This document shows positions 41,917 through 43,315 of a stretch of 64,000 nucleotides of DNA, piece after piece (the first letter of the stretch is position 1; every line of letters starts with the position of its first letter). Under the pieces are notes generated by a model. The model searched no databases, was not told the DNA's origin, and worked only from the letters and a program-made list of their open reading frames with translations. Source of the DNA: Mesorhizobium sp. AR10 (GTDB lineage Bacteria; Pseudomonadota; Alphaproteobacteria; Rhizobiales; Rhizobiaceae); NCBI RefSeq assembly GCF_024746795.1, contig NZ_CP080524.1, positions 930,001-994,000 of the forward strand, read 5' to 3'. The position numbers and the translations under genes are program-made.

Positions 41917-42042
41917 ATGGCTAAAGGTGCGATGAAGGCGGGCAAGGAAGCCCGCAAACCGAAGAAGGACGCGAAGAAACCCGCCGCGGCCCCGGCCCTG
42001 AAGGCACCGCCGGTCAAGGCGATGAAGCTGAAGGACAAGTAA
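41917..42042 (+). CDS. 41-residue Lys/Ala-rich small basic protein
   Basis: MAKGAMKAGKEARKPKKDAK, then a Pro/Ala-rich part and MKLKDK at the end. Almost all residues are Lys, Ala or Pro, as in small nucleic-acid-binding or linker-histone-tail-like proteins. GGAGG sits 8 bp before the ATG, the best evidence that it is translated. The open frame to 41860 is not supported. No function can be assigned. Confidence 0.65.
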   Translation: MAKGAMKAGKEARKPKKDAKKPAAAPALKAPPVKAMKLKDK

Positions 42043-42152
42043 GGCCTCGGCGAATCCGTTTCGGGGTAGATTTTGACCGGCAGCATCGGGTTGTGACCTG
42101 ATGCCGCCGGCGTTACTGTTGATTGGTGCACGAAAACTTCTATATCCACCTG

Positions 42153-42199
42153 GCGAGGACGACTTCGCGCTTTCCTAAAAATGGCAGGGACGACCCGCC
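42153..42199 (+). promoter_or_regulatory. guanidine-II (mini-ykkC) riboswitch
   Basis: Two short hairpins each carry an ACGA loop, the hallmark of guanidine-II (ACGR loops). P1 is GCGAGG-ACGA-CTTCGC (42153-42168) and P2 is GGCAGGG-ACGA-CCCGCC (42183-42199, one bulged A), with a 14-nt linker. It lies upstream of an SMR family gene of the Gdx/SugE type, the commonest gene under this riboswitch, and guanidinium should raise its expression. The distance to the start codon (75 nt) is enlarged by a 48-bp palindromic repeat. Confidence 0.85.
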
Positions 42200-42210
42200 G
42201 ATCTTTGATT

Positions 42211-42258
42211 GAGCATCGGATTGTCCGAAAACCGGATTGCACTTTCGGTCCGATGCTC
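42211..42258. repeat. 48-bp palindromic repeat between riboswitch and gdx
   Basis: Perfect 10-bp inverted ends: GAGCATCGGA (42211-42220) and TCCGATGCTC (42249-42258). A nested pair CCGAAA (42225-42230) and TTTCGG (42243-42248) makes the whole element fold into one hairpin. The composition and CCGAAAACCGG core are like the dispersed intergenic repeats of rhizobia. It stops 4 bp before the gdx ribosome site (GGAG at 42263). Confidence 0.8.
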
Positions 42259-42273
42259 TGATGGAGCGTTGCG

Positions 42274-42588
42274 ATGCCGTGGATTCTTCTCTTCTTTGCC
42301 GGCCTGTTCGAGATCGGCTGGGCGATCGGCCTCAAATATGCGGACGGCTTCTCGAAGCCGCTGCCGACCGTTCTGACCATTGCCTCGATGATCGTCAGCC
42401 TGGCCTTGCTCGGCCTGGCGCTGAAGGCGCTGCCTGTCGGCACGGCCTATGCGGTGTGGACCGGCATCGGCACTGTCGGCACGGCGCTGCTCGGCATCTG
42501 GTTGCTGGGCGAGCCGGCGACCGCGATCAGGCTGGGCTGCATTGCTCTCATCGTCTGCGGCATCGCGGGACTGAAGCTCGCCGCCTAG
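42274..42588 (+). CDS. gdx: SMR family guanidinium exporter Gdx/SugE
   Basis: A 104-residue, four-TM small multidrug resistance protein. [20 protein letters not shown] holds the essential Glu of TM1 (about residue 13) in the [12 protein letters not shown] context typical of the Gdx (SugE) subtype rather than the promiscuous EmrE subtype. [20 protein letters not shown] in TM3 is the other subtype signature. It exports guanidinium in exchange for protons as an antiparallel dimer. The guanidine-II riboswitch upstream agrees with this role. GGAG lies 7 bp before the ATG. Confidence 0.95.
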
Positions 42589-42664: not shown

Positions 42665-43093
42665 CTAGCGGGCGGAAAAGCCCGGAGGCGTCCTGCCGGT
42701 GCGCTGCTTGCGCGCCGCATAACGCGCGTCGCGCTTGGCCTTGCGTTCGGCTTCGTCGGCGAGCAAACGGGCGATACGCTCGTTCTCGTCGGCTTCCCGG
42801 ATCTTTGCTTCCGCTTGTGCCGCCTCTTCAGCGGCGAGACGCGCCGCTTCAGCAGCTGCCTCGCGCTCGGCCTTTTCGACCGCTTCGCGTGCCAGCTTTT
42901 CCTGCTTCAGCCGGGCCTTTTCAGCCTCACGCTTTTCACGGGCCTCGAGGATCGCCTTGCGTTCGGCCTGTCGCGCCAGCACTGCAGGATCGTCTGCTGC
43001 CGGCTTTGACTTGAAGCGCTCCAGAAGCGCCTTCTTTGCCTCGTTTGCGGCGTTGCGCCGCTCGAAAACGTCTTTTTCCCTGTAAATAGCCAA
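42665..43093 (-). CDS. coiled-coil DUF6481-type protein
   Basis: A 142-residue, highly charged protein. The N-terminal motif AIYREKDVFERRNAANEAKK is conserved; then a long Ala/Glu/Lys/Arg coiled coil (about 40-125, for example AREAVEKAEREAAAEAARLA), and a basic C-terminal end (KRDARYAARKQRTGRTPPGF). Members are small rhizobial proteins of unknown function that I recall under DUF6481. The start is TTG 43093 or GTG 43099; AGGGA spacing favours the TTG. It stands alone, convergent with gdx. Confidence 0.78.
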   Translation of the reverse strand: MAIYREKDVFERRNAANEAKKALLERFKSKPAADDPAVLARQAERKAILEAREKREAEKARLKQEKLAREAVEKAEREAAAEAARLAAEEAAQAEAKIREADENERIARLLADEAERKAKRDARYAARKQRTGRTPPGFSAR

Positions 43094-43315
43094 GTCCACT
43101 TCCCTGAAGTCAATTCGCGACGCTTACATACGCGTGAAAACCGAGAGTTCAAGCGCCAAAACGGCATGGCAGCCATGAAATTGTTGGCTGTTGCAGCCGG
43201 GAGACGCCTTTTCGCCCGAAACCCGACATGCACTGTTCACCGTCCAGCCCTCTGGCGGCGCGCTGGACGGATGGCTACCTCTAGCGCGAAAAGCAACACA
43301 TCAGGATGACATGTC

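Follow-up and report, generated by a model that had tools for sequence, protein, structure and literature searches.

We analysed a 64,000-nucleotide window of the genome of Mesorhizobium sp. AR10, in which a gene on the forward strand (42274-42588, with its ATG at 42274) encodes a 104-residue SMR exporter. The product of this gene, gdx (sugE), matches the NCBIfam SugE model NF008512 at 131.6 bits, above the cut-off of 126, and is also matched by Pfam PF00893, which bears out the Gdx-type SMR gene named in an earlier reading of the sequence (hereafter the original prediction). Among solved chains the closest is 6wk5_B, which we take to be Gdx-Clo, at 99.9 bits, and the best chain named EmrE reaches 34.3 bits. 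By its sequence the exporter is of the Gdx/SugE subtype of SMR exporters, and it is predicted to transport guanidinium. Its downstream neighbour, on the opposite strand (42665-43099), encodes a DUF6481 protein (PF20089). Directly upstream is a small open reading frame (41917-42042), rich in lysine and alanine (MAKGAMKAGKEARKPKKDAKK...), with no Pfam or NCBIfam match at an E value of 0.001.

The gdx leader, on the same strand, contains two hairpins that we read directly from the sequence and that agree with the original prediction: P1 (GCGAGGACGACTTCGC, 42153-42168) and P2 (GGCAGGGACGACCCGCC, 42183-42199), each with an ACGA loop and the latter with a single bulged A. A 14-nt linker, delimited by alignment and pyrimidine-rich at its start, separates them (42169-42182). 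Downstream of P2 come an 11-nt T-rich spacer (GATCTTTGATT, 42200-42210), a 48-bp palindrome that we call P3 (42211-42258), a second spacer of 4 nt (42259-42262) and the ribosome-binding site GGAGCG (42263-42268), of which GGAG (42263-42266) is the Shine-Dalgarno word (SD); the palindrome and the ribosome site at 42263 had been read in the same way before. Along the chain, 63 nt separate P2 from the SD. If P3 folds, about 15 unpaired bases (11 + 4) would remain, which matches the number originally proposed. Upstream of P1 the sequence contains a candidate promoter (TGTTGA, 17 nt, CTATAT; 42117-42145). A CTATAT-like box (5-6 of 6 positions, the best in a 19-position stretch) stands exactly 13 nt 5' of P1 in 99 of 127 parsed leaders, and with CTATAT as the -10 box the RNA would start at about P1. 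A scan for the sigma-70 consensus found no promoter before P1.

Guanidine-II riboswitches consist of two hairpins with ACGR tetraloops (PMC5486947), joined by a linker of 7-40 nt (PMC7544219). The leader resembles this class (mini-ykkC, RF01068) in its two G+C-rich stems, both with ACGA loops, in its 14-nt linker and in its place before a gene for the efflux or metabolism of guanidine, here the SugE/Gdx exporter gene. The Rfam Guanidine-II model, with which the original prediction was to be checked, matches 42151-42197 (alignment also supporting P2) at 23.0 bits (E 0.029 for 901 bases searched), below the gathering score of 32 bits, which is a database criterion and not a structural feature. 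Applied at cut-off to the entire window, Rfam lists a tRNA and nothing else, and so misses this riboswitch. A covariance model built for the genus from 35 P1-P2 sequences (each third one in a set of 104 unique sequences, without that of the window) did recognize it, scoring the aptamer at 52.4 bits (E 1.9e-9 across the whole genome of the strain, 6.88 Mb in two contigs), with the second-best match in that genome at 17.6 bits (E 0.7). The score under the Rfam cut-off might be taken to mean that the two ACGA hairpins are a coincidence, but the E value from the genus model and the presence of the aptamer hairpins in the same position before gdx in relatives make this scarcely credible. An RF01068 element, MH_s35, is listed for Mesorhizobium huakuii in PMC5596092, where it is known as a table entry that may or may not be a gdx leader; the words 'repeat' and 'palindrom' are absent from the main text of that paper.

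The sequence of P3 recurs around the strain's genome as a dispersed, RIME-like repeat. Its outer 13 positions pair (two of them as G-T) and 15 of the 24 mirror positions are paired; an inverted-repeat search of 42100-42300 at default settings listed none, the arms being visible by direct comparison. Searches of the strain's own genome placed the palindrome at 19 or more sites at E<=1e-3, the window's counted (40 of 59 first-look candidates were scored), and the repeat core has 124 exact matches there, again with the window's, against 0 for a reversed control pattern. The element between P2 and the ribosome site thus has the many copies, the common core and the palindromic arms of a dispersed palindromic repeat, as had been proposed. 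By eye, the T-rich spacer before P3 also resembles the T-rich flank to the left of many dispersed copies. When 40 of the own-genome repeat loci were scanned at Rfam cut-offs, two matches (an ar15 sRNA and a tRNA) and no riboswitch were obtained.

We surveyed the same leader across 146 genomes of the genus. An SMR match was found in 144. In 134 of these there is a close orthologue of gdx, and we read its leader; in the other ten the best SMR match is distant (E 1.7e-26 or worse). P2 is recognizable in 131 of the 134 leaders (in L238 after re-parsing by hand), the three exceptions, L118, L129 and L240, being left out of the gap and aptamer-intact counts, and L131 was excluded as the same genome as L104. 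A word resembling the SD (the parser accepts GGAG, GAGG, AGGA and GGGG) lies at -10 to -13 in 133 of 134. The gap between P2 and the SD is bimodal: it measures 6-13 nt in 30 leaders and 29-88 nt in 101, with none at 14-28 nt (n=131). One of the long gaps, in L113, is by eye a duplicated SD region and counts as a long gap but not as P3; the other 100 hold an insert. The length and arms of P3 differ widely among leaders, and in many relatives the slot holds a shorter hairpin whose arms read AGCATC..GATGCT. P3 classes were assigned by gap length and eye, 'P3-AGCATC' being the default label of 91 long-gap leaders, given with no sequence test, and nine others being classed by eye.

We considered whether the insert was a lone accident in the window's strain and rejected this, given the long insert in 101 of 131 leaders. 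A repeat inside a riboswitch-controlled leader, originally described as unusual, is to that extent less so, a long insert being the rule in the genus, although the window's own copy looks separately inserted. As a group, guanidine-II riboswitches are variable in their distance to the ribosome site (PMC5486947). The window nevertheless differs from the usual arrangement in having a repeat-made hairpin between P2 and the SD, with 63 nt in place of the 6-13 nt of P3-less leaders in the genus. Outside the genus set, 50 of the best 80 of 584 loci have two ACGR hairpins by rule; five of these are named Mesorhizobium, and among the 45 others the P2-SD distance is at most 20 nt in 43 and 34 nt in one (L081), while one (L090) gave no SD.

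Inserts of a second repeat subfamily occupy the same slot in some relatives. The insert of L112 is 97% identical over 38 nt to a dispersed copy in the strain's own genome, and those of L116 and L102 match own-genome copies at 91% over 43 nt and 88% over 42 nt; of the nine leaders in the other class five were compared in this way, L179 giving a weak match and L223 none. The pattern of this subfamily has six exact matches in the strain's own genome (control 0). Since the inserts of the window and of the L112 type come from different repeat subfamilies, the slot appears to have been filled at least twice, by insertion or exchange, and by at least two subfamilies. The P3 state changes 12 times on the gdx tree, against a mean of 39.9 when shuffled, but this is a weak tree, with 15 of its 136 inner branches starred, and the total number of fillings, or gain as against loss, cannot therefore be read from it.

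The window's palindrome is closer to dispersed copies than to the inserts of other leaders. Its identity reaches 0.94 with copies from other genomes (ten compared, all fetched for being good matches) and 0.88, with a median of 0.79, with own-genome copies (52 loci, a few of them the same place), whereas its maximum among 100 other long leader inserts, that of L113 included, is 0.79 and the median 0.56. In addition L151, its sister on the weak gdx tree (support 80), has no P3. For these two reasons P3 in the window probably arose by a separate insertion, or else by exchange. A different history would make P3 an ancestral leader hairpin, converted to a repeat copy or exchanged for one by gene conversion, with no recent insertion. 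The shorter AGCATC..GATGCT hairpin in the same place in many relatives fits such a history, as does a tree too weak to separate gain from loss. Against it stand the P3-less sister, albeit weakly supported, and the greater similarity to dispersed copies, although conversion would give the same; we regard this history as distinctly improbable.

We then compared aptamer retention in leaders with and without the insert, as the original prediction had suggested. A strict rule finds both P1 and P2 intact in 94 of the 100 leaders that carry P3 and in 26 of the 31 that lack it, so leaders with an insert have not tended to lose the aptamer. This retention is the best evidence, of an indirect kind, that guanidine control persists in leaders with P3. 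It also bears on the proposal that, because of the insert, the aptamer no longer acts on the ribosome site, gdx now being constitutive and P1 and P2 relics. Such uncoupling would suit the 63-nt P2-SD distance, the window's 23 bits on the Rfam model, with which 113 of 146 genus genomes give at least one match of 32 bits or more (anywhere in the genome, gdx leader or not), and folding models that lack a clear ON state. It is nonetheless quite improbable, given that the aptamer is kept in the genus at least as well with P3 as without, that the window's aptamer scores 52.4 bits on the genus model, and that of the leaders lacking P2 two, L118 and L129, have no insert by eye, L240 being ambiguous. 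These three leaders, with a close gdx but an unrecognizable P2, are possibly natural losses of the switch.

P3 is predicted to fold on its own. For 71 of 96 unique long gaps (L113's included) the predicted fold is more stable than that of 95% of the dinucleotide shuffles (mean z -2.76), a few inserts (L112, L168 and L226) being drawn with two hairpins. In the full leader the mean pair probability of P3 is at least 0.5 in 78 of 98 leaders folded freely and in 70 of 98 with P1 and P2 forced. The corresponding values for the window, 0.96 and 0.87, uphold the expectation that the inserted repeat would fold into its own hairpin. The further suggestion that the repeat preserves the geometry of the switch is consistent with these folds but is not specific to them: the unpaired length outside hairpins has a median of 9.0 nt, and shuffled inserts leave 9.3 nt on average. 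We therefore rejected preserved effective spacing as evidence.

We next asked how the P3 stem has evolved, using two alignments (A1 and A2) of 38 and 48 unique inserts from 40 and 49 leaders, which exclude L101, L208, L210 and the other P3 class. Over nine stem pairs on the gdx tree, 32 of 59 changes in the long-insert set preserve pairing, against about 37% in neutral simulation, a count reached in 2 of 100 neutral runs (at the rate that came closest in number of changes); in the short-insert set the figures are 14 of 29 and about 35%, reached in 3 of 100. The better-paired stem columns alone give 28 of 43 (1 of 100 runs; seven of nine columns) and 9 of 15 (5 of 100; six of nine), but this subset was chosen after the covariation results and the signal is weaker with all nine pairs. 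The covariation score of P2 and P3 together was reached by none of 500 shuffles in the long set and by one of 500 in the short set, with the caution that applies to such statistics when sequences are related. In the short set, however, partners slid by one column give an equally high score (0.090 versus 0.084), with 21 versus 8 double-change cells. Such cells are significant in the long set only (2 of 500 shuffles, as against 66 of 500 in the short set), and stem pairs changed on both sides are significant in neither (43 and 141 of 500 shuffles). When all nine pairs are scored at the tips, pairing in the short set is no more frequent than neutral simulation gives, with 60-97 of 100 simulated runs reaching the observed level; in the long set 56, 28, 9 and 0 of 100 runs reach it, an excess of pairing appearing only at the higher rates. 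Taken across leaders, there is moderate support from these comparisons for conservation of P3 pairing. Dispersed copies of the repeat also have paired arms by eye, so the pairing may in part be a constraint of the element itself.

Guanidinium characteristically induces an interaction between the two loops in this class, with a response of the gene. In the mechanism proposed for the ON switch, the ligand joins P1 and P2 and frees the SD from an anti-SD (PMC7544219); an alternative proposal has the SD held by a stem-loop that overlaps P2 and the ribosome site (PMC5486947). We modelled the openness of the SD in 127 of the 131 leaders, those with a P1 by rule (L128, L242, L173 and L238 have none). 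Forcing P1 and P2 lowers mean SD openness, from 0.30 to 0.16 in leaders without P3 and from 0.29 to 0.24 and 0.40 to 0.32 in those with it. With the linker kept unpaired as well, openness rises in just 8 of 28, 36 of 89 and 2 of 9 leaders of the three classes. Across the genus, SD complementarity above shuffles was found for neither the linker nor the P2 flank (2 of 113 and 1 of 88). In the free fold of the window the SD is paired with the linker and the 3' strand of P1 (0.95), P1 not being formed, and the free fold of the P3-less L151 shows the same pairing (0.93), also without P1. This likeness fits the view that P3 is irrelevant to that pairing, within an energy model that charges little for the extra branch.

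Alternatively, P3 could be an active and hence selected part of the expression platform, its base or flanks competing for the SD, or the hairpin setting the switching threshold, providing a standby site or stabilizing the RNA. In the forced fold of the window the SD does pair with the P2-SD region, at 0.53, and in the drawn fold with the T-rich spacer; 100 of 131 leaders carry an insert, and the pairing-preserving changes give a moderate signal. No SD pairing is common to the leaders in free or forced folds, however, the length and arms of P3 vary widely, and 30 of 131 leaders do without it, with the aptamer intact in 26 of the 31 that lack P3. We consider an active role unlikely.

The explanation that we favour, as reasonably probable, is that P3 is a self-folding, tolerated spacer and that guanidine control has been retained. 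The leader would act at the level of translation, as a guanidine-II ON switch of a gene for a guanidine exporter, and the stretch from P2 to the ribosome site would have received a copy of the dispersed palindromic repeat. In the RNA this copy would form a third hairpin by itself, with the aptamer folded or unfolded, and with P3 folded the roughly 15 unpaired bases would join P2 to the ribosome site, so that the switch still works. Within the genus the slot would repeatedly have received, exchanged or kept folding inserts of more than one repeat subfamily. The grounds for a tolerated P3 in a working switch are comparative and not thermodynamic. Because most relatives carry an extra folding insert in the same slot, the inserts seem to be tolerated and to be no accident that broke the switch. 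We infer that translation still responds to guanidine and that P3 does no harm, being neutral or of slight use. Between the two outcomes that the original prediction had left side by side, a switch that might still work and a repeat that breaks control, the retention of the aptamer in related leaders with inserts argues for the first, although the folding models show no switching.

A broader reading is that the slot has been refilled repeatedly by different dispersed repeats, which survive as a co-evolving third helix and so form a recurrent source of parts for expression platforms. We hold this to be possible but doubtful. To it may perhaps be added a preference of the repeat for landing just 3' of a hairpin such as P2. 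The mean fold of 50 nt beside 50 own-genome copies is -15.3 upstream, -11.8 downstream and -14.2 far away, which is not convincing as a hairpin preference to the left of the copies. Be that as it may, the genus provides a natural series before the same gene, from no insert through a short hairpin to a whole repeat of two subfamilies. The series lets one ask directly how much sequence an expression platform can accommodate on the way from the aptamer to the ribosome site, and it also bears on whether mobile palindromes supply regulatory RNA parts.

The open-access literature that we searched yielded no report of a repeat lying between the aptamer of a guanidine-II riboswitch and the ribosome site. 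A review contains the speculation that MITEs could form riboswitches or terminators (PMC10969869). Upstream of the pneumococcal trp genes a BOX element lies between two T-box riboswitches; the parts of that leader are thought to fold largely independently, and control, judged by RNA-seq, is apparently kept (PMC3049150). The window is similar in having a dispersed repeat inside a riboswitch leader, for which the BOX element is, by analogy, a direct precedent. It differs in that the pneumococcal element sits between two T-boxes at one locus, whereas here the slot is between aptamer and ribosome site, is filled in leaders across the genus and holds more than one subfamily.

Many of the own-genome copies (for example around L009, L017 and L257) look by eye like mosaics, in which a left stem-loop with CATCCCGATGGAATCGGGATG or a close variant is followed by a T-rich spacer and then by the palindrome. 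Several arm types (GAGCATGATC, GAGCATCGGA, GCATGTCG and GCAATTCC) can be seen in these mosaics around one common core. RIME elements are reportedly the subject of work by Osteras in 1995. Rhizobium-specific intergenic mosaic elements, or RIME, are intergenic repeats of rhizobia with no assigned function (PMC2573895, PMC2245857), and the own-genome copies, often made of a left stem-loop, a T-rich spacer and a right palindrome, are likened to them by description and not by sequence. Of the parts of the mosaic copies, the window's leader contains just two, some of the T-rich spacer and the palindrome to its right. The asymmetric core of the repeat is strongly strand-biased along the strain's own chromosome (103 versus 21). 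The 15 minus-strand copies among the listed own-genome places (0.29-5.25 Mb) are spread out, with no visible switch of sign, and a GC-skew sample of this genome was too weak for placing the origin, terminus or replichores. A strand bias of the core (p<0.01) is also present in 17 of 18 other genomes of the genus tested (from a set of 19, G061 with its three copies being excluded), G093 being unbiased at 66:58.
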